Assembly: GCA_014650475.1 (NCBI GenBank)
Contig: BMVA01000032.1
Location: forward strand, 1 to 44,589
From: Streptomyces albogriseolus
GTDB taxonomy: Bacteria; Actinomycetota; Actinomycetes; Streptomycetales; Streptomycetaceae
Reading direction: 5' to 3'
Length of the DNA stretch: 44,589 nt
Shown here: positions 1,248 to 13,955 of the stretch, in pieces
Position numbering within the stretch: the first letter of the stretch is position 1
How the letters are laid out: each line of letters starts with the position of its first letter
The notes under the pieces: model-generated
The model's input: only the letters and a program-made list of their open reading frames with translations
Told to the model about the DNA's origin: nothing
Database searches by the model: none
Translations under genes and position numbers: made by a program

Positions 1248-2450
1248 CTAGGTGAGGGTGTGGCCGAGCTTGCGAAGCGCCTTTCGCTGCTCATCTAGCG
1301 ACGCATGCGCATAGACCTTCATGGTCACTCCGATGTCGCTGTGGCCAACGATCTGCCGGACGATGTGCGGCGGCGCGCCCAGGTTGAGCAGCAGCGATAC
1401 AGCCGAGTGACGCAGATCATGAAATCTGATCTCCAAGCCCAGCCGCTTCCGAAGCGGGTCCCAACTCCGACGCAGATTGTCCGGCTCCAGCGGTGTGCCG
1501 ATGCGGGACGTGAAGATCAGCCCGTGTTCCTTCCATCCCATGCCGGCCGCCGCCCGCTCCTGCGCTTGCCGCTCGCGGTGCTCGCCCAGCGCCTTCACCA
1601 CGAGAGGTGGGAGCGGGACAGTGCGGACTGACGCCAGGGTCTTGGGCCTGACCAACCGCAGCTCCCCGCCGACGCGCTGTAGCGCGCGTTCGATGGTCAG
1701 CGTCTCGCGGTCCAGGTCCACCGCGTCCCAGCGAAGCCCCAGCAGCTCACCCCGCCGCATCCCCAGGACCAGGGCGAGCGCGTAAAGGGCGTGCAACCGG
1801 TCCTCTGCCGACTCCCGGAGCAAGAGCCGGGCGTCCGCGACGCTGAGCCCTTTCCCCATGTCGTACGACGGCGTAGGCACCTGCACGAGCTGGGCGACGT
1901 TCCGTACGATCAGCTCTTCCCGTACGGCGTTCTGCAACGCGTTCCGCAGGACAGCGTGGATGGACTGCACCATGCGGCGGGAGAGCAGCGCCTTGCAGCA
2001 TTCCGCCGCCGCACAGCACTGCGGCTCCGGGCGCTCCTTGTCCCATCCGTGCTTGCAGCACTGGCACTCGGAGGCGACGCGAGCGAGCCACGTCCGGACC
2101 TCCGCGGCTCGCAGAGTACGGATCTTCTTCCGCCCTAGTCCGGGCACGAGGTGGACCCGTACAACACTCTCGTAGCCCTGGTAGGTCTTCGGCCGTCGGT
2201 GGACCTTGACCACGGTGGCGAGCCAGTAGGTCAGGTACTCGTCCAGCCTCATGTTCGTGTCCGGCACGGGGATGCCCTGGTTCTCCTGCGCCTGGAGTTC
2301 GGTGATCTTCTGCCGGACCTCGTCACGGGTCTTTCCGTAGACCGAGACGCGCTTGCGGATACCGCTGGTCGTCGTGACGTACACGCGACCGTGATAGGTG
2401 CCGTCCTTGCGGATGGTGATGCTGCCTTCACCGTTGGCACGCTTGGCCAT
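1248..2450 (-). CDS. int: Site-specific tyrosine integrase of the element
   Basis: This 400-residue tyrosine recombinase should integrate and, with the excisionase, excise the element at a tRNA gene. The catalytic residues are visible: R232 in GMRRGELLGL, H344 and R347 in FHDLRHS, H370 in VGHSD and nucleophile Y380 in KVYAHA. The N-terminal part begins MAKRANGEGSITIRKDG, the usual SAM-like arm-binding start. A Cys-rich insert (ECQCC, QCC, ECC, seven cysteines) lies between the core-binding and catalytic parts and could bind a metal. ATG at 2450 overlaps the excisionase stop by one base (TGATG), so translation is probably coupled. A longer frame back to 2729 only shadows xis and non-coding DNA. 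Confidence 0.95.
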   Translation of the reverse strand: MAKRANGEGSITIRKDGTYHGRVYVTTTSGIRKRVSVYGKTRDEVRQKITELQAQENQGIPVPDTNMRLDEYLTYWLATVVKVHRRPKTYQGYESVVRVHLVPGLGRKKIRTLRAAEVRTWLARVASECQCCKHGWDKERPEPQCCAAAECCKALLSRRMVQSIHAVLRNALQNAVREELIVRNVAQLVQVPTPSYDMGKGLSVADARLLLRESAEDRLHALYALALVLGMRRGELLGLRWDAVDLDRETLTIERALQRVGGELRLVRPKTLASVRTVPLPPLVVKALGEHRERQAQERAAAGMGWKEHGLIFTSRIGTPLEPDNLRRSWDPLRKRLGLEIRFHDLRHSAVSLLLNLGAPPHIVRQIVGHSDIGVTMKVYAHASLDEQRKALRKLGHTLT

Positions 2451-2647
2451 CAGTTGTTGTCCCCCAACTGGTTCTCGATGTAGATGCGTAGGGCATCGGC
2501 CGGGACTCGTCGGGCACGGCCGATCGTGAAGCTCTGGAGTTGCTTGGACCTGATGAGGTCGTAGACCTTGAAGCGGCTGAGACGCAGCGCGGCCATGACC
2601 TCGGGAACCGTGAGCGCTTCGTGGCTCGGGGGCAGGGCGGTGGTCAT
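2450..2647 (-). CDS. xis: Excisionase / MerR-like DNA-binding protein
   Basis: A 65-residue protein with one winged HTH: LTVPEVMAALRLSRFKVYDL followed by FTIGRARRVPADALRIYI. This is the usual excisionase directly preceding an AICE integrase, where it bends attachment-site DNA and favours excision. A GGAGGAG ribosome site lies about 8 bases before ATG 2647. The stop overlaps the integrase start. Upstream lies the GTAGCGG repeat cluster, which may contain its promoter. Confidence 0.9.
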   Translation of the reverse strand: MTTALPPSHEALTVPEVMAALRLSRFKVYDLIRSKQLQSFTIGRARRVPADALRIYIENQLGDNN

Positions 2648-2701
2648 GCGATGACTCCTCCGGGGCAGTCCTGCGGGGGGCCTCTCTGGGGGGCGCTACT
2701 T

Positions 2702-2855
2702 CCGCTACCGCCGCTACCTCGCAGGTCAAGAGCCTGTTGGAGGTAGCGGGAAGGGGTAGCGGTAGCGGATAGGTAGCGGCACGCGATGGCGGTTGCCGCT
2801 ACCCCGTTTGCACTGGTCAAGCGGCGGTTTCGGTGCCCGGTAGCGGAAGTAGCGG
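2702..2855. repeat. Nine GTAGCGG/CCGCTAC iteron-like repeats; candidate replication origin or operator
   Basis: Exact 7-mers occur at 2702, 2711 and 2796 (as CCGCTAC) and at 2743, 2756, 2762, 2773, 2840 and 2849 (as GTAGCGG). The last two overlap the 3' end of the DUF3631 gene; the rest fill the space before xis. Clustered short repeats beside replication genes are typical of iteron origins, and a repressor-binding array is the alternative. I infer an oriV because the neighbouring genes encode a primase-polymerase and a DUF3631 ATPase. Confidence 0.55.
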
Positions 2856-3965
2856 ACTTTCCGGGGGTGGGGGGCAGTAGCGCTGCCATGCGTCGTGCAG
2901 ATCGGTGGCGTAGTAGCCCTTCAGCACGCTCCCGGCGGTCTTGATGTTGCGGGAGGCGATCGGCTCGTTGTCGGCCGTCATGTACTCCGCGAGCATCCGC
3001 GACAGGCGCCGGTTGTCGAGCGGCTTGCCGTTGAGGTCGGCCCACGGGGCATCGTCCAGGGCGTTGAGCCGGTCCAGGATGGCAACGGTGGGCAGGCGGT
3101 CGATGCCGACCATGACGTGGTCGCGTAGGTCGGTCAGCAGTCGCACGCCCAGACTGCCCTTGTCGTTTGCCTTGGATGCCTTGACTAGGGTCACGCACGC
3201 TTGGCGGGCCCGGTCGGGCCAGTGGCCGCCGACGGCGTCGGCGACGGCGAGCAGGGGTTCCCACACGTCCGCCGGCCGGTCGGTCACCCCGTCGGGCATG
3301 TCCGGCCACGCCCCCATGACGCGCCCGCGTGCCTGCTCCGCCCATGCCGCGAGCCGGTCCCGCAGGGCCTGCCCCTCGGCCTCGTGGATGCGGGCCCGGA
3401 AGGGCTCCACCTTCTCGTTCCTGGCCCGGCGGCGCATGCGGATGACGACGGAGCGGCTGAGGATCGTGTCCGGCAGCGAGCCGAGACCGGCGACCGCGAC
3501 CGCACAGTACGAGGGGAAGGCCTGCACGGTCTGCTGTCCGCCGTCACCGATGCACCGGTAGGTGACCCCGGTCCGGCGGTGCCCGGCGTTGAGGAACCCG
3601 CGCAGTTCCTCGTTGTCCCCCGCCTTGGGGCCGAAGACGGTATCGATCTCGTCGAACAGGATGGTGGGCTTGCCGGTGCCGGCGGAGACGGACCGGAACA
3701 GGGCGGCGGCGGAGGCGTTGACGGCCGTCATGGGCTGCGGCACCAGCGTCTCCACGATCTCCAGCGCGCGCGTCTTGCCCGACCCCGGTTCGGGGGACAG
3801 GAAGGCGATGCGGGGGGTGGAGTCGAAGCAGTCGAGCAGGTGCGCGTGGGCGTCCCACAACGTGACGGCGACGAACGCGGCCTCGGTGGGGAAGACGTTG
3901 AACCGTCGGTGGAAGGCTTCCACCTCGTCCAGCAGCGCGGCCCCGTCGATCGTGGTGGGGGTCAT
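2817..3965 (-). CDS. DUF3631-type ATPase, probable replicative helicase of the element
   Basis: This 382-residue protein has a Walker A motif SPEPGSGKT (K64) and a Walker B motif ILFDEID, followed by the conserved DUF3631 C-terminal region. Homologues accompany primase-polymerase genes in AICEs and are thought to supply the ATPase or helicase for element replication; the exact reaction is inferred. ATG 3965 overlaps the stop of the upstream gene (ATGA), so the four replication-region genes behave as one coupled operon. A longer frame to 4136 only shadows the neighbour. The repeat cluster begins within its last codons. Confidence 0.85.
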   Translation of the reverse strand: MTPTTIDGAALLDEVEAFHRRFNVFPTEAAFVAVTLWDAHAHLLDCFDSTPRIAFLSPEPGSGKTRALEIVETLVPQPMTAVNASAAALFRSVSAGTGKPTILFDEIDTVFGPKAGDNEELRGFLNAGHRRTGVTYRCIGDGGQQTVQAFPSYCAVAVAGLGSLPDTILSRSVVIRMRRRARNEKVEPFRARIHEAEGQALRDRLAAWAEQARGRVMGAWPDMPDGVTDRPADVWEPLLAVADAVGGHWPDRARQACVTLVKASKANDKGSLGVRLLTDLRDHVMVGIDRLPTVAILDRLNALDDAPWADLNGKPLDNRRLSRMLAEYMTADNEPIASRNIKTAGSVLKGYYATDLHDAWQRYCPPPPESPLLPLPGTETAA

Positions 3966-4393
3966 GCGGCGTTCCTCCGTTCGGTGCCCAGGGCGGGCAT
4001 GCCGGTGCAGAAGTGCTTGTGCGCGGCGTACTCGGTGACCAGCGCGGCCACGGCGTCCTGCCCGCGGGCGGTGCCGGTGTGCCCGCAGGGGCAGGCGTAG
4101 GCGGCGGTGGGAATGCCGCCGTGCCGCTTGGACCAACGGGCCCCGTCCCAGTGGTGGCGGTAGACCGGCGGGGCGTAGATGCGGAGACCGGGCCGCTCCG
4201 GCGTCGGGTCGGCACTGGGGTGCGCGCCGTCGGCCGGGAACCGCTTCGAGCGAGGAAGAGCAGTGACGACGCCCTTGCGGGCGGCGTCCTTCAGCTCGCC
4301 CACGCCCGCCGTGCTCACAGGTTGTGGGGCGGCGTGCGGGCCGGGGGCCGGTGTGGGTTGGCCTTCCAAGCGGGGGCGGGGTGCGGTGGTCAT
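3962..4393 (-). CDS. Small Cys/His protein between the primase-polymerase and the ATPase
   Basis: A 143-residue protein of unrecognised function. The first half is Pro/Ala-rich and low in complexity. The second half contains WDGARWSKRHGG and a probable metal site, CPCGH followed by HKHFC about 25 residues later. Both ends overlap neighbouring genes by four bases (ATGA), so it is translated together with the replication proteins. A role as accessory replication factor is inferred from position only. Confidence 0.75.
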   Translation of the reverse strand: MTTAPRPRLEGQPTPAPGPHAAPQPVSTAGVGELKDAARKGVVTALPRSKRFPADGAHPSADPTPERPGLRIYAPPVYRHHWDGARWSKRHGGIPTAAYACPCGHTGTARGQDAVAALVTEYAAHKHFCTGMPALGTERRNAA

Positions 4394-5292
4394 GCGGCCT
4401 CCCGCGGGCGGACGGTTCGCAGGCTGCTGTCGAGCGCGCTGCGGATGGTGGTGCGGCACTCGGCAGCGGTGAGTCCGGCCGCCTCGCCCGCCGCTTGGAA
4501 GGCGTCCTCTGCCACGTGGCGGGGGAGGTCGCCCCATGCGACGAACCGACCCACCTTGAACGCGCTGCGATTCAGGGTGGTGTTGCGCAGCCCTTCCGGG
4601 GCGGCGGCCACCGTCGCGCACTCCGCTTCCAGTGCGGCCACGGCCGCGCGGCTGCCGTCGACCGCAGGCGGCCGCAACGGGCCCGCCAAGCACGCGGGAG
4701 CCGGACGCAGGATGCCGAGCAGCCATTCGGGCAGCGGGGCGGTCACAGCGGCGTTCAGCGCCTCGTACCGCCCGGCGGTGACGATGCTTCCGGCGGCGAC
4801 GACGTAGCCACCGGCCGCGCGGGTGTCGACGGACTCCGCGACCGTGCCGGCGGTGTTCGGGAGGTGCACACCGTCCGGGGTGGTGAAGTACAGGTGCGTT
4901 CCGCCGCTCGCGGTCCGCACCCGGTAGGTGGTGGGGACGGCGTGCCCGGCGCGCTCGCAGAGCGCTGCGAAGGTCGCCGCGCCGCAAGGCGCGTCCGAAC
5001 TACCCTTGTCTTTGGGCACGTCCAGGTCGACCACGACCAGCCCCGAGGGGCCGGTGGCGATCCCGACGTTGAACGGCGCTCGCGACCACGCGGCCCGGAT
5101 GCGGGCCTGGTCAGTAGTGGCGCGTTGCTCCCACTTGAGGTGCCCGTCCGCGCACGGGCCGGTGCGGGTGCAGGTCTTCTCTCCGTGCAGGGCGGGCCGC
5201 TTGGTGCCGGGCCGTAACGGGAAGACGTGCCAGCCGCGCGCGGCGGCGTCCAGCGCTGCGCACAGCAGCGCGGAGTGGGGGTCTTGGTTCAT
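4390..5292 (-). CDS. Bifunctional DNA primase/polymerase (prim-pol)
   Basis: A 300-residue protein with the N-terminal prim-pol domain. VVVDLDVP gives the metal-binding D89 and D91, SGGTHLYF is the second conserved motif, and AGGYVVAAGS is the third. The family makes primers and extends them, and initiates replication of excised AICE circles. The N-terminus (ALDAAARGWHVFPLRPGTKRP) is the classic family start, supporting ATG 5292; a GGAG lies about 10 bases upstream within a small inverted repeat. It is followed by overlapping genes for a Cys/His protein and a DUF3631 ATPase, the usual replication set. Confidence 0.92.
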   Translation of the reverse strand: MNQDPHSALLCAALDAAARGWHVFPLRPGTKRPALHGEKTCTRTGPCADGHLKWEQRATTDQARIRAAWSRAPFNVGIATGPSGLVVVDLDVPKDKGSSDAPCGAATFAALCERAGHAVPTTYRVRTASGGTHLYFTTPDGVHLPNTAGTVAESVDTRAAGGYVVAAGSIVTAGRYEALNAAVTAPLPEWLLGILRPAPACLAGPLRPPAVDGSRAAVAALEAECATVAAAPEGLRNTTLNRSAFKVGRFVAWGDLPRHVAEDAFQAAGEAAGLTAAECRTTIRSALDSSLRTVRPREAA

Positions 5293-5380: not shown

Positions 5381-5833
5381 CTAGCCGTGGAAGTGGTTGC
5401 GTTTGAACACGGCCCGGCGGATGTTCACTGTGGTCCCGCCCTTGTGGCCGCTCCCGCTGAGCACCTGGACGGCGATCCAGCCGCCGAAGATGACGGCCGC
5501 CAGGATGATGAGCTGGGTGACGAACGCGGTCAGAGCCGCGATGAACGACGTGAGTAACAAAAGCCCGCCGCACACCGCGAGGAACCCGACGCCTCCGAGA
5601 GCGACGTTCACCGCCGTCCGGGAGACGGCCGGCGGGTCGGTGACCGGTTGGGGCTGCGGGTGGTCGATGGCGTAGCCGGTGACGACGCGGCCGTCCGGGA
5701 GGACGATGCTCGCTACCGTCGGCAGCGTGCTCGGCTGCATCGGAATGACCGGCGCCGGGTGGGCGACCGGGGGCGGTATCGGGGTGGGCTGGTGGACTTC
5801 CACGGACCGCTGAGGGGTGTGGTTGGGGTGCAT
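5381..5833 (-). CDS. Small membrane protein, possible Spd (plasmid spread) protein
   Basis: A 150-residue protein with a Pro-rich N-terminal third (about 1-60), then two or three hydrophobic segments (about 73-120: AVNVALGGVGFLAVCGG, LLLLTSFIAALTAF, LIILAAVIFGGWIAVQVL) and a short basic tail. It lies between traB with its candidate transfer locus and the replication genes. Small membrane proteins in this position of Streptomyces plasmids and AICEs take part in intramycelial spread. No specific motif is recognised, so the role is inferred. Confidence 0.7.
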   Translation of the reverse strand: MHPNHTPQRSVEVHQPTPIPPPVAHPAPVIPMQPSTLPTVASIVLPDGRVVTGYAIDHPQPQPVTDPPAVSRTAVNVALGGVGFLAVCGGLLLLTSFIAALTAFVTQLIILAAVIFGGWIAVQVLSGSGHKGGTTVNIRRAVFKRNHFHG

Positions 5834-5925
5834 GCGGAATCCCTTCCGGCGCGTGGCTAGGGAGGCGGAGACACCCCCTTCGGGGTGCCGTGTGGAGGGG
5901 TGTTTCGGGGGTCTGACCTGCGGGC

Positions 5926-6037
5926 CTCCCTGACTCCCTGAACGATCATTCGTGCAGGTCAGGGCCAGGGAGGCGGGTCAGGGAGGTGGTCAGGGAGTTC
6001 TCCCTGCCTCCCTGACCCGCAGCGGGTCGGCTCCCTG
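5926..6037. repeat. Eight CAGGGAG/CTCCCTG repeats just after traB; candidate clt transfer locus
   Basis: Exact copies occur at 5926, 5934, 6000, 6008 and 6031 (as CTCCCTG) and at 5966, 5979 and 5991 (as CAGGGAG). The nearest is 4 bases beyond the traB stop at 6041. Streptomyces TraB proteins are known to recognise arrays of 8-bp repeats (TRS) in the clt locus, often next to or in the end of traB. Location and spacing fit that role. A small hairpin (acacccc/ggggtgt, 5871-5903) lies just beyond. Confidence 0.6.
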
Positions 6038-6040
6038 CGA

Positions 6041-8158
6041 TCAGTTGGCGGAAGCGGAACCGTCGGTGTCGCGGTTGGCGAGGGCGCGGGCGACGCGGTC
6101 GCGGGAGACGACCATGACGCCGTCGGACTTGTAGGGCTCGGCGCCGGCGTCGTCCAGGACGCGCTTGAGGTCGATGAACGACCACTCGCCGTACGCGCCG
6201 GGGTTGCGGGTGGCGAGGCGGGCGAGGACGTCCTTGGTACGGACGCGGGTCGCGTCACCGATGACGGCGGCGATGTCCGCGAGCGGGTCGCGCTCCTCGG
6301 TCCGGTCGATGGCGTGGAGGGTGGTGACGCCGTCGCGCAGGGCTTTGGCCCGGTCGGTGATGGCGGTGGCCGCGTCGTCGTCGATGTAGTGCGTGCGCAC
6401 CGTGATGGACGACTGCCCCGCCGGGATCGTGATGCCGTCAGAAGCGACCACCAGCGTGCCCCGGTCCAGGCCCGGGCGCAGCAGGTTCGGCGCCGCGCCG
6501 CCGTCGACGGCCTTGTCCCCCAGCGCCATGCGGGCCTGCGACTCGGTGCCGAGGGCGAGCGAGGCGCGGGTGTGGGCGCCCTCGCGCACCAGCTTGGGAA
6601 GGTTCTCGTTGGTGGGGTCCTGGGTGCCCTGCCACATCAGCACGTTCACCGCCCGCCCCTGGTTGTGAATCTTGCGGACGGCCATGAAGTACCGGGAGTT
6701 CGCCTTGCTGCCGCCGTAGGGGCGCTTGTCCTCGTCCTTGGCCGGGCACATGAACGCCATCTGTGCCTCGTCGACGAGCACGATCAGCGCCGGGAAGGTG
6801 GTGCCGGGCGGGGCCTGGATGCGGCGGTTCATCTCGTCCACCGCGCCCTCGACCATCTCGGTTACCTGGATCACGTGCTCATCCGTCGGCCCCTGGATCA
6901 GCGTGGTGGCCAGGCCGTCGAACATGGCCCAGTCACCCACGCCCTTGAGGTCGCCGATCAGGAACTCCACCGACCGGTCAAGGGCCAGCCACAGCGCGAG
7001 GGAGCGCAGGGCCACGGTCTTGCCCTGGTTCGACAGGCCCGTGATGAGAAGGTGCCGCTGGTAGAGGGAGAGGGCGGCGGCGTCGCCGCGCAGGTCCTGC
7101 CCCCACGGGGCCTTGCCCTTCTTGTAGTCGGCGGTCATCGTCTCGTCGGTGACCAGCGGCGACGGGCCGATCGGCTCATCCAGCGCACCGGAGTCGGCGA
7201 TCCACAGCCGCACCGTCCGCGCGGCCTGCGGGATCGTGATGAACACCTCATGCTCGTGCCGGGTCAGGTTCTCCGCGAGCTTGCGCCGCTTGCCCTGGAC
7301 CTCGTTCGTCGACACCCCCGAGGGAAGCGTCACGTCGACTTCCACCCCGCATCCCGCGATGGTGATGGGCCCGAGCATGGACGCGCCGGCGTCGCCCATC
7401 TCCTTGATAGCCCTGGCCAGGGCCGGGACTCCGAGGTCGCGCAGGGCCTTGACCACGATGGACGGGGTGATCGGCTCCCCCTCGCCCGAGCGGACGTTCG
7501 CGGGCAGCGCCCACTGAGGTGCGGCGTGCTGCTTCCGTCCGACCGACCACAGCGCGAGCAGCGCGAGGAACGGGCCGATGCTGACGGCGGGGCCCCACAC
7601 CACTTGCACGATGCGAATCAGTAAGGCGATGAAGTCGATGGTCGCTGTGAGCGGCGTGACCACGTCGGCGGCCTGGCCGGTGCTGATGGCGAGGACGACG
7701 CCGAGGGCGACCAGCACACCGACGCTCATGCCGGCGCCCACGGCCACGCCCTTGGCGGCGTCGACCGGGGAGTGGAGCAGGTCCATGCGGCGGTGGTGGC
7801 GGGCGGCGCGGAAGCGCTGCAACCGCTCCTCCCACTCCTCCGCCGCTTCCAGGTTCCCCGCGGCCTCCGCCGCCCGGATCATCCGCTCATACCGGGAGCC
7901 GGTGCGGCCGTCCCACGCCCGACGCGCGGCGATCCGGCCGCCGTTGAACGTGTAGAGGCTGTGCCGGACGACCGCGCGGCCGGCCGACCGGGTGCGCTCG
8001 TGCGTGACGGCGGTCTTCACCGCGCGACCGGAGCGAACCCACAGCGGCACCGGCCGCGCGGGCGGCGCGTCCGGGACGACGGTGAGCACCGTCGGGGTCG
8101 TGTCCACGGTCCCCGGGGTGTCGGTGTGCTTGTGGAGGTGCACGACGTTCTCAGACAT
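6041..8158 (-). CDS. traB: TraB-like FtsK/SpoIIIE DNA translocase for conjugation
   Basis: This 705-residue membrane ATPase is the transfer protein of the element. Two or three membrane segments lie at about 136-205, then a motor domain with Walker A GLSNQGKT (374-381) and Walker B LIVLVDEAQ (D463, E464). The C-terminus (about 640-700, with FIDLKRVLDDAGAEPYKSDG) resembles the FtsK gamma winged helix that reads DNA repeats. The family pumps double-stranded DNA between hyphae after binding clt repeats. ATG 8158 (MSENVVHLHKH) is chosen because AGGAG lies 10 bases upstream; the frame extends to 8239 without support. The candidate binding repeats follow the stop directly. Confidence 0.93.
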   Translation of the reverse strand: MSENVVHLHKHTDTPGTVDTTPTVLTVVPDAPPARPVPLWVRSGRAVKTAVTHERTRSAGRAVVRHSLYTFNGGRIAARRAWDGRTGSRYERMIRAAEAAGNLEAAEEWEERLQRFRAARHHRRMDLLHSPVDAAKGVAVGAGMSVGVLVALGVVLAISTGQAADVVTPLTATIDFIALLIRIVQVVWGPAVSIGPFLALLALWSVGRKQHAAPQWALPANVRSGEGEPITPSIVVKALRDLGVPALARAIKEMGDAGASMLGPITIAGCGVEVDVTLPSGVSTNEVQGKRRKLAENLTRHEHEVFITIPQAARTVRLWIADSGALDEPIGPSPLVTDETMTADYKKGKAPWGQDLRGDAAALSLYQRHLLITGLSNQGKTVALRSLALWLALDRSVEFLIGDLKGVGDWAMFDGLATTLIQGPTDEHVIQVTEMVEGAVDEMNRRIQAPPGTTFPALIVLVDEAQMAFMCPAKDEDKRPYGGSKANSRYFMAVRKIHNQGRAVNVLMWQGTQDPTNENLPKLVREGAHTRASLALGTESQARMALGDKAVDGGAAPNLLRPGLDRGTLVVASDGITIPAGQSSITVRTHYIDDDAATAITDRAKALRDGVTTLHAIDRTEERDPLADIAAVIGDATRVRTKDVLARLATRNPGAYGEWSFIDLKRVLDDAGAEPYKSDGVMVVSRDRVARALANRDTDGSASAN

Positions 8159-8205
8159 GCTGGGAGAGCTCCTGACTGCCCCTGTGGGGCGGTTGTGGGT
8201 GAGAG

Positions 8206-8244
8206 CCGGGGTGGCCGGGTCCGTGGAAAGAGCGGCCACCCCGG
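8206..8244 (-). other. Hairpin in the leader of traB
   Basis: A 12-bp inverted repeat ccggggtggccg (8206-8217) against 8233-8244, with a 15-base loop, lies between the 105-residue gene and traB. There is no T-run on the leftward strand. It could limit read-through into traB or protect the transcript. Only the structure is seen. Confidence 0.45.
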
Positions 8245-8260: not shown

Positions 8261-8578
8261 TCACCACCAGCCGGAGGACTTCTTGGCCGCCTTAGCGCGG
8301 GCGGCCTCGGTGATGAGCCGCTGCCGCTCGCCGTGCAGGGCGTTCAGCTCGGCGGTCAGCCGCATCTCAGCGGCCGACGCGGTGGACTCCATCTGCGTCT
8401 CGGCGCGGCCGGTGCTGCGGCCCCGCGCGGTGCGGTAGGCGCCACCGGCGGCGGCGCGGAGCATGGCCCGGCGCTCGCGGCCGTTCAGCGGCCACAACTC
8501 ACCCCGCCGCACGGCCTCCAACTTCTTGCTGGTGGCCCTGATCTCGCGGTCCAGGCGGCGCAGGTCGGCGTTGCTCAT
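8261..8578 (-). CDS. Small helical protein upstream of traB
   Basis: A 105-residue, highly charged protein of unrecognised function. Two long helical stretches (LRRLDREIRATSKKLEAVRR and MRLTAELNALHGERQRLITE) suggest a coiled coil, separated by a basic Gly/Arg-rich middle. It ends KKSSGWW. Its ATG overlaps the stop of the upstream zinc-binding gene by one base (TGATG), so it belongs to the transfer operon. Similar small coiled-coil proteins are frequent in AICE transfer regions. Confidence 0.75.
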   Translation of the reverse strand: MSNADLRRLDREIRATSKKLEAVRRGELWPLNGRERRAMLRAAAGGAYRTARGRSTGRAETQMESTASAAEMRLTAELNALHGERQRLITEAARAKAAKKSSGWW

Positions 8579-8925
8579 CAGGTGCTCCCATCGGACCCGT
8601 GCGGGTCGGCATCGGCGCAGGGCACGCAGGTGCCCAGCGAGGTGGGGATGACGTATCCGGCATCACGCCGGCAGACAGGGCAGACGCGGCGCGCCCGGTT
8701 GGCCGCGGCGAGCGCCGCACGCCGTGCCGGGGTCATCGGACGCACCGGCACCGCGAGGTCGACGCGGTAGAGGTAGGCGACCAGCGGGCCGCGCCTGCGG
8801 CGGGGCCGTTCGAGCTGCGCGGCCACGTCCTGACCACCGGGGCGGAGGCCGAGGGCGCGGAGTTGGCGGCGGGTGGCGTAGCCGTCCGGGGCGAGGCGCC
8901 ACCGGAACACCGGCAGCGCCCCCAT
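8578..8925 (-). CDS. RRQRL-motif zinc-binding protein
   Basis: A 115-residue protein common on Streptomyces AICEs. It shows the family features GYATRRQLRALGLRPGGQDV, then AYLYRVDLAVPVRPM, and a C-terminal four-cysteine site (CPVC, then CVPC about 18 residues later) that should hold zinc. Its function is unknown. ATG 8925 (MGALPVFRWR) overlaps the stop of the SpdB-like gene by one base and is preferred over a GTG at 8943 in the same frame. Confidence 0.8.
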   Translation of the reverse strand: MGALPVFRWRLAPDGYATRRQLRALGLRPGGQDVAAQLERPRRRRGPLVAYLYRVDLAVPVRPMTPARRAALAAANRARRVCPVCRRDAGYVIPTSLGTCVPCADADPHGSDGST

Positions 8926-9785
8926 CACGCCACGCGCTTCCACGCGGCCCGCAAGCGGACCTCGGACGCGGAGTGACCGGCCGCCCGGAACCGGGCCGCC
9001 ATCTCCCGGTAGGACAGGGCCGGGGTCTCGCTGGTGCGGATCTCGTCCACGATGACGTCTAGCGCCTCATCGGTGAGCGCGGGTGCGCTCTCCAGCGAGC
9101 GGGCCGCGAGTGGCTCGGTTGGGCCCCACACGGGGAGTTCCCAGCGGGGTGTGACACCGGGCGTGACGCGGGCCGTCACGCTGGTCAGCGCCCTGCCGGT
9201 CTCCTCGCCCGCGCGGGCCGTCTCCAGCGTCGACCACGCCGACGAAAGAGTCTGCGCGGTCTTCGCCTGGACGCGTGCGACGCGAGCACCGGCCTCCGTC
9301 ACGGCCGTCAACCGCGTCTCCTCGGTGGCCGCTTCCGCCCGCAGCCTGGCCCGGGCCACGGCCGCCCCGTCGCGCGCTTCCTGCTGAATCCCCCGGATGG
9401 CGTCCAGTGCGACGGGGGTGAGGGCTGTGCGCTCCCACATCGCGTGGACCAGCCACAGGGCTTTAGCCGCGAGTGGGAGCCAGGCGACGGCCAGCCACGC
9501 CCCGGCGGAGTGCTCGGCCGTGAGGGCGTGGGCGACCAGGACGCCGGCGGCGAGGATGCCGAAGGACCAGCCGACGGCGGTAACGGCCCGGTTGTGGTCG
9601 CCCTGGGCGGCGAGGCGGCGTTCGTAGGCGAGGGTGGCCAGCCATCCCCCGTCGATACCCAGACCGACGACCAGGGCGACCGGCCACGGCACCGCCGTCC
9701 CGAGCCACATGACGACCACGGCCAGGGTGAGCACCATGGACACGGCCGTCATCGCGACGGCCGGCAGAACAGTTTTCGCCCTCAT
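8925..9785 (-). CDS. SpdB-like four-helix membrane protein
   Basis: A 286-residue protein with four predicted membrane helices (about 9-29, 33-54, 68-90 and 94-117). A long helical, Ala/Glu-rich region follows (about 130-195), and then a C-terminal HTH-like segment ending SYREMAARFRAAGHSASEVR. This layout is known from SpdB and DUF2637-type proteins of Streptomyces conjugative plasmids, which help spread incoming DNA through the mycelium. Start and stop overlap the neighbouring genes, placing it in the transfer operon. Confidence 0.8.
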   Translation of the reverse strand: MRAKTVLPAVAMTAVSMVLTLAVVVMWLGTAVPWPVALVVGLGIDGGWLATLAYERRLAAQGDHNRAVTAVGWSFGILAAGVLVAHALTAEHSAGAWLAVAWLPLAAKALWLVHAMWERTALTPVALDAIRGIQQEARDGAAVARARLRAEAATEETRLTAVTEAGARVARVQAKTAQTLSSAWSTLETARAGEETGRALTSVTARVTPGVTPRWELPVWGPTEPLAARSLESAPALTDEALDVIVDEIRTSETPALSYREMAARFRAAGHSASEVRLRAAWKRVA

Positions 9786-12734: not shown

Positions 12735-13955
12735 CTACCGGCCGGCAAGCTGCCTGCGCGCACTCAGGGAAATCACGTCCGCCATACTCCCCGGATGAGG
12801 ACTAGCCTCATCAATCGACCCACTGAAATCCCGCGCCCAAGCGGTAACTTGCCCGCTAAACAAGGTCTTCAAAAAGTCAGCCCTCCACCCAAACACCTTG
12901 GGTTCCAGCGACTCTGGGTCTACCGTCGCACCGAATGCCTTCTCCGCCACCATCGCAACTAGCTTCGGCCGTTCCACTTCCCTATCACGCCAGCCAGGTT
13001 CACGGATGCGCATGCGTTCACCCGAAGCAGGATCACGCCTATTCGACATCTGCTTGTAAAGGCTCGTCCGCTGCCCGCCTGATAGCAAGCCGTTGCGATA
13101 ACCATGCTCGATGAGCGCGGCGAGAGACATTCCCCACGTCTTCTTTACAGGAACAAGAGACGTCAAGGTTACACTTCTCGGCCATTCCCTCTTTAGGGTC
13201 TCCACTGGCAACAAGAACTCTGCGGCGAAGGCGTACGCCTCAGCCTCCAGGTCACCCTCACGACGTGTCTGATGCATGCTTAGATGGCCCAGTTCATGTG
13301 CCACTGACATCCTCGTGCGCTCCCAGGAGTCACTCGCCCTCACACCGATAAGCGGTCGATCAAGCATGGGGCCAATCCAAGTGGAGAACGCATCGTGATT
13401 CTTGGCGTGCAAGCTACCGTCAAAGTCGATCGTCGCAACATAAACCCCGCCTCGCTCAAGGGTCCTAATGAGGTGAGGAACGGGCTCGCTTCGAGGAACA
13501 CCCAAGGCCTGACGTACGAACCTAGCGGCGTCAACGGGACCCACTTCAATCGGGATTCGTGGAACGCGCAGCAATGGAAGACGCAAACGAGGCTCGGCCG
13601 CGTGGATAACGTCACCAACAAGGCGCGCCCACGATACCAGTAGGTCCTCTTCGGCCTTTGGAAGGTTCTTCTTCGCCCGGAATAGAAGACTTTCCCGCTG
13701 AACAGCCGTGACCGGCGGAGAAGCCAGGAAGCCAACTGGGAAGCCCAGAGCACCGGCAAGGTCATTTGCCTTTTGCCAATCCAGTTTAGTGGAAATGGCA
13801 TGCTCCAGCTTCGAGTACCACGACTGCGAGACGCCGGCCCGTGTCGCGACCTCACCGGAGCGCAAGCGCTGAATCAGGCGAGCATCCCGCAGTCGTTCCC
13901 CATAGACCTCTACGTCAGGCTTGTCCCCCCACAGTGGAGTTGCCTTCGTCGTCAT
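12735..13955 (-). CDS. XRE regulator fused to an ImmA/IrrE (M78) metallopeptidase
   Basis: A 406-residue protein. An N-terminal XRE HTH lies at about 17-55 (RLRDARLIQRLRSGEVATRA, then GVSQSWYSKLEHA). The peptidase domain has the zinc motif HELGH (H220, E221, H224) with downstream EAEAYAFAAEFLLP providing the third ligand. ImmA-type proteases cleave repressors to derepress mobile elements, and XRE-M78 fusions also act in toxin-antitoxin-like stress systems. ATG 13955 overlaps the upstream gene by 41 bases, with GAGG about 8 bases before. Base composition is visibly less GC-rich than the backbone genes, suggesting separate acquisition. Confidence 0.9.
   Translation of the reverse strand: MTTKATPLWGDKPDVEVYGERLRDARLIQRLRSGEVATRAGVSQSWYSKLEHAISTKLDWQKANDLAGALGFPVGFLASPPVTAVQRESLLFRAKKNLPKAEEDLLVSWARLVGDVIHAAEPRLRLPLLRVPRIPIEVGPVDAARFVRQALGVPRSEPVPHLIRTLERGGVYVATIDFDGSLHAKNHDAFSTWIGPMLDRPLIGVRASDSWERTRMSVAHELGHLSMHQTRREGDLEAEAYAFAAEFLLPVETLKREWPRSVTLTSLVPVKKTWGMSLAALIEHGYRNGLLSGGQRTSLYKQMSNRRDPASGERMRIREPGWRDREVERPKLVAMVAEKAFGATVDPESLEPKVFGWRADFLKTLFSGQVTAWARDFSGSIDEASPHPGSMADVISLSARRQLAGR

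Follow-up and report, generated by a model that had tools for sequence, protein, structure and literature searches.

An array of eight CAGGGAG units follows a traB-like gene in the window, the 44,589-nucleotide stretch of Streptomyces albogriseolus DNA analysed here (contig BMVA01000032.1), and is very probably the cis-acting locus of transfer (clt) of an integrative conjugative element, representing a new repeat class whose specificity would be switched by a single residue in the wing of the TraB C-terminal winged-helix domain. The observations behind this assignment are the position of the array, its conservation in relatives, its dissociation from the replication module, the coupled change of residue and repeat, and its occurrence in loci without TraB.

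The array (5926..6037, units on both strands) comprises five units on the minus strand (5926-5932, 5934-5940, 6000-6006, 6008-6014 and 6031-6037) and three on the plus strand (5966-5972, 5979-5985 and 5991-5997), with start-to-start spacings that include 8, 12 and 13 bases, and the nearest unit ends three bases beyond the traB stop codon (6041-6043). The first-pass annotation, made from the sequence alone, had described eight copies within 112 bases in both orientations, beginning right after the traB stop and spaced by 8 and 12-13 bases, all of which was borne out. It had also set the motif apart from the GACCCGGA type, in agreement with the nine dispersed copies of GACCCGGA in the window, none of which falls in the array. 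CAGGGAG occurs 18 times in the whole window, against 9.75 expected from shuffles, and eight of these copies form the array. No other 7-mer cluster in the window is as dense, and among 40 windows simulated with an order-3 Markov model, no 7-mer reached more than five copies per 112 bases. A degenerate ninth unit, CTAGGGAG, is present at 5857..5864, where relatives have CTCCCTG just ahead of the spd-like gene. The array also contains a spacer (5941..5965) which, judged by eye, approximates TGAYCWGC..AAA in traB sense and is retained in both repeat classes described below, as well as in loci with a distant TraB and in those without one. Counted over the whole genome, GGTCAGGGAG showed little excess (44 against 35 in the reversed control), and this pattern gives no grounds for postulating clt-like sites in the chromosome.

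Relatives of the window TraB came from two sources: named genomes, from which the best 80 of 211 loci were taken, and a set of 392 Streptomyces genomes, 108 of which contain matches with E up to 1e-80. Among 110 loci and the window, which is represented by its copy L081, 19 regions duplicate another and two incomplete loci (L023 and L041) were dropped, leaving 90 distinct regions compared over the 240 bases downstream of traB. At least four CAGGGAG units (4-9) adjoin the tra gene in cis in 87 of the 90 regions, where the remainder of each locus would predict 0-0.14 in a stretch of 240 bases, and the remaining three contain no CAGGGAG and carry CGGGGAG/TGGGGAG units in an identical layout. Published clts, as presented in PMC3583192, likewise adjoin tra and are bound by Tra. 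In traB sense, the common layout opens with a single unit; after 16 bases come two direct units 8 apart, then AA and inverted units, the TGAYCWGC..AAA spacer and finally another two direct units 8 apart.

The array could instead be a replication origin whose iterons are bound by Prim-Pol/DUF3631 proteins, as iterons are likewise short direct and inverted repeats, the replication module adjoins the array, and pWTY27 carries both an iteron and a clt according to PMC3583192. This is highly unlikely, because the array is retained where Prim-Pol/DUF3631 genes were not found and because DUF3631 has an array of its own. The comparison covered 75 of the 80 named loci, the five with less than 5.3 kb downstream being omitted (L001, L023, L025, L041 and L066), and an array was defined as at least four CRGGGAG within 150 bases. 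The traB array was present in 73 of the 75 loci, L044 and L051 having variants of it, while a CCGCTAC array was present in 23 of the 24 loci in which DUF3631 was found and in none of the 51 in which it was not. There are therefore two arrays, one tied to traB and the other to the replication gene. In the window, the second array (CCGCTAC/GTAGCGG, 2702..2855) lies at the 3' end of the DUF3631 gene and probably consists of replication iterons rather than a clt. About half of the TraB-less loci also have a separate AGCGTCC/GTCCGC array near xis. The iteron-origin reading was rejected on the dissociation of the CAGGGAG array from replication genes.

The three regions without CAGGGAG encode a TraB with the sequence KSHG, against KSDG in nearly all others. 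The sample for repeat specificity was enlarged by 99 loci to 180 distinct regions (L023, L041 and L188 being dropped as short), and the covariation set comprised 157 TraBs of at least 69% identity, of which 155 were labelled by an excess of CAGGGA (A class) or [CT]GGGGA (G class) within 150 bases and two were mixed. Residue 706 predicted the repeat class in 155 of 155 cases and was the best of 712 alignment columns, followed by columns 712, 715 and 700. It is Asp (120), Glu (4) or Asn (3) in the A class and His (28) in the G class, and both mixed loci (L035 and L075) have Glu. The second base of the unit is A in 99% of 931 A-class units and G in 96% of 196 G-class units, in a scan that permitted only A or G at this base and held GGGA fixed. 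In a phylogeny computed with FastTree after removal of the final 92 residues of TraB, the repeat label switches 17 times, and in all 15 of 15 independent pairs on well-supported branches residue 706 switches the same way as the repeat (p 6e-5). This joint switching emerged from a comparison of TraBs with downstream repeats across relatives, of the kind that the first-pass annotation had put forward for the recognition helix.

Association merely by adjacency, with residue and repeat recombining as one piece, would be favoured by the start of the array directly after the C-terminal codons, but is very improbable given the silent variation around it. Information on class is at most 0.117 bits for fourfold-degenerate sites of codons 691-732, against 0.681 for residue 706. 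Silent positions that vary and lie between this residue and the array (codons 707, 708, 713, 717-719, 723 and 731; entropy 0.62-1.06 bits) give no more than 0.047 bits; codons 727-730 are nearly invariant and hence uninformative on linkage. Physical linkage therefore does not explain the association between residue and repeat, and the linkage artefact was rejected on the variable silent sites.

The predicted winged-helix domain at the TraB C-terminus spans residues 641-732 (6044..6319, minus strand), with the Asp706 codon at the wing tip (6122..6124, minus strand). The AlphaFold2 model of these residues, made from 69 sequences, has a mean predicted local distance difference test (pLDDT) score of 84.9, shows helices and strands arranged as in a winged helix, and places residue 706 between the two wing strands. 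No sequence match was found among solved structures; matches to solved winged helices were weak or modest in score, the best VIA match was an EF-hand domain, and FtsK gamma was not among the fold matches listed, which is no argument against an FtsK gamma fold. The first-pass annotation had pointed to the recognition helix, whereas the residue that tracks repeat class is in the wing. The domain model and the covariation (155/155 TraBs; 15/15 pairs) are consistent with a repeat specificity that goes with the Tra C-terminal winged helix. Linkage to traB, residue covariation and the TraB-less loci described below support, at the level of sequence, the initial proposal of a clt that would be read by this winged helix with a different specificity.

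The Asp/His rule does not hold for TraBs of 28-68% identity, many of which are followed by repeats in the equivalent place, often with other motifs. These include AGTGA in L191 (only about three copies), TGATGGA in L193, GGGGAAG in L239 and L240, CGAGGGA in L242-L246, CTAGAG in L251 and L252, and CCGCTAG in L257. No clear downstream array was seen by eye in L247, L250 and L253-L256, and the sequence of L248 ends too early for inspection of an array. The window's own genome encodes a second, distant TraB (L249, contig C24) with GGTGCTAC repeats directly downstream.

The core pattern CRGGGAGNCRGGGAGNNCTCCC was found at 122 sites in 91 of the 392 genomes and at none in the reversed control. Most of these sites (91/122) lie 30-51 bases past a TraB match, and the other 31 correspond to 27 loci, of which seven have TraB or a piece of it next to the array, three have no array by the criterion used (L213, L231 and L237), and 17 have an array without TraB. 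In the latter, no TraB was detected by tblastn with eight TraBs or, in 17 of 17, by a hidden Markov model (HMM) of 19 TraBs, which recovered six of eight positive controls and missed two in which just 63-71 residues are present; four of the 17 loci (L232, L233, L235 and L236) abut a contig end. One integrase family is present in 15 of the 17, beside the array in 14 and in those always on the same side of it, and an excisionase-like gene is also present in 15 (checked for HTH_17 in three). Convincing flanking direct repeats, 8.7-11 kb apart, were identified in eight of 13 loci tested (L216, L218, L220, L224, L229, L230, L232 and L235) and were not found in L211, L212, L217, L222 and L227. L235 is an entire contig of 9303 bases with identical 24-base ends, perhaps a circle.

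Several TraB-less loci hold two to four array classes. Tandem A-class and G-class arrays occur in five of them (L211, from the window's own genome, L216, L222, L230 and L232), and in 13 of the 17 a second motif recurs four or more times within 700 bases, a count uncorrected for chance. Second arrays recognised by eye include GGTAGAG (L212, L217, L227 and L230), GTCACACC (L230), CTACTGC (L229), GCTTGCGC (L222) and GGGGGAG (L220). The locus in the window's own genome (L211:8516-14931, contig C9) has CAGGGAG and CGGGGAG arrays between xis and int, and its borders were not found. Genes labelled rep-like are weakly so except in L216 (P4-type primase), as open reading frame calling probably misframed some genes, and rep-like family 2 (L211, L230 and L224) had no Pfam match. 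These small integrative elements, which combine an integrase, an excisionase-like gene and regulators but no TraB, are likely to be satellites of double-stranded DNA conjugation. The arrays lined up beside the integrase would be clts of two to four specificity classes, open to loading by the TraB of several different helpers.

Integrases of the satellite family occur beyond these arrays as well. Among 39 further relatives of the L211 integrase, for which 1.3 kb upstream was read, in 15 the density of a 7-mer cluster exceeded that in all 20 shuffles; these clusters are mostly of a TGACG type, probably rep iterons, and only L262 has seven CRGGGAG. TGACGCA (ATGACGC in L274) is repeated seven to eight times upstream of the integrases in L258, L259, L261, L274, L276, L284 and L287, and these repeats are probably iterons of another replication type.

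Were GGTAGAG a clt too, it would be expected downstream of another traB, and this prediction was checked. The pattern CTYTACCCCGGTAGAGGG occurred at seven sites in seven of the 392 genomes and at none in the reversed control. Five sites are in TraB-less loci (L212, L214, L217, L227 and L230) and two elsewhere. One of these, in L300, lies directly downstream of a TraB with 24-32% identity to the queries; for the other, in L298, the sequence ends before traB, and a spd-like gene follows the array.

The TraB-less loci also bear on two further explanations. TraB or another element protein could bind the array to regulate the traB-spd genes, with transfer independent of the array; the array sits between traB and the start codon of the next gene, and covariation shows only that TraB and array belong together. 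Such a role is unlikely, as TraB-less loci retain arrays of up to four classes beside the integrase, and tblastn gave no match to the spd-like gene or to the genes at 8261-8578 and 8925-9785 in several loci that bear the array. The retention of the array in TraB-less loci gives indirect support for a cis requirement in transfer. An RNA element of the traB-spd message, such as a terminator or attenuator, would agree with inverted repeats able to pair in RNA, but is scarcely credible because direct and inverted units switch together, arrays are present beside integrases without traB, and Rfam gave only sub-threshold look-alikes, nearly all of them eukaryotic microRNAs. The RNA-element reading was rejected in the absence of an Rfam match over the family threshold.

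In a clt of this kind, the subunits of the TraB pump would read the CAGGGAG units via their C-terminal winged helix, with the wing-tip residue 706 telling A (Asp or Glu) from G (His) at the second position of each unit. TraB may load on the excised, replicated circle, which would then be pumped as double-stranded DNA into the neighbouring cell. Physical binding, loading as a hexamer and the need for the array in transfer are inferred by analogy with pSVH1 and pWTY27.

The traB-like gene (6041..8239, minus strand; start codon uncertain) encodes an FtsK/SpoIIIE-family translocase (PF01580), and matches to the window TraB start at residue 17-28 in many relatives. The protein scored 18.5 bits against the NCBIfam plasmid TraB equivalog NF041214, far from its cut-off of 800, indicating a distant likeness. 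Downstream of the array, also on the minus strand, are genes for a small membrane protein (5381..5833), Prim-Pol (4390..5292), a DUF3631 (RepAM-type) replication protein (2817..4136) and a tyrosine integrase (1248..2729; start codon uncertain). The small membrane protein had no Pfam match, and we take it to be spd-like from its position. The element combines an integrase, a replication gene and an FtsK/SpoIIIE translocase, and is therefore an actinomycete integrative and conjugative element (AICE) by the domain combinations given in PMC3218068; its att repeats or borders were not found within the window. Two circular records, L210 (NZ_CP108827.1, 13.5 kb), a relative, and L297 (NZ_CP107792.1, 18.5 kb), have AICE gene content and also repeats downstream of their FtsK genes. 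A gene for an RRQRL zinc-binding protein (8578-8943 in the window) is annotated upstream of FtsK in both. The window further encodes, at 12735-13955, a helix-turn-helix protein with an IrrE-like peptidase (M78), with a partial spr1629-type repressor/antitoxin match below the curated cut-off.

Among the closest known systems is the clt of pSVH1, in which 8-bp repeats are read by the TraB C-terminal winged helix, as outlined in PMC3583192 and PMC4170104. The window element similarly combines short repeats with an FtsK-like TraB and predicted C-terminal winged-helix recognition, but differs in its repeat (CAGGGAG rather than GACCCGGA, the motif as given in the first-pass annotation), in the location of the specificity-tracking residue in the wing, in having no clustered GACCCGGA in the window, and in the distance of its TraB from the plasmid TraB model. 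The clt of pWTY27 consists of four TGACACC units at the end of tra and in adjacent non-coding DNA, footprinted with TraA (as reported in PMC3583192), whereas here the motif is different and pairs of direct units, 8 bases apart, are opposed by inverted pairs. The AICE pSAM2 is likewise an integrative element with an FtsK-like protein for transfer, and it lacks a described clt motif according to PMC9513070. Integrative mobilizable elements (IMEs) borrow the transfer system of a helper, as the TraB-less elements here putatively do. IMEs, however, depend on single-stranded, relaxase-based transfer, as stated in PMC5704250, whereas the TraB-less elements carry arrays for a double-stranded DNA pump. 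No element hijacking TraB is named in the sections consulted of two reviews of mobilizable elements (PMC5704250 and PMC11389934), and the literature searched, by title and the start of the abstract and excluding subscription papers, contained no description of these repeats or of TraB-less clt elements.

The satellite interpretation goes further in novelty than the clt and is less certain: the elements would be hitchhikers with several docking sites, of a kind not described in the literature searched. With the array, a TraB family that has matches in 108 of 392 Streptomyces genomes gains a probable clt, together with a one-residue hypothesis on who may move whom among these elements.
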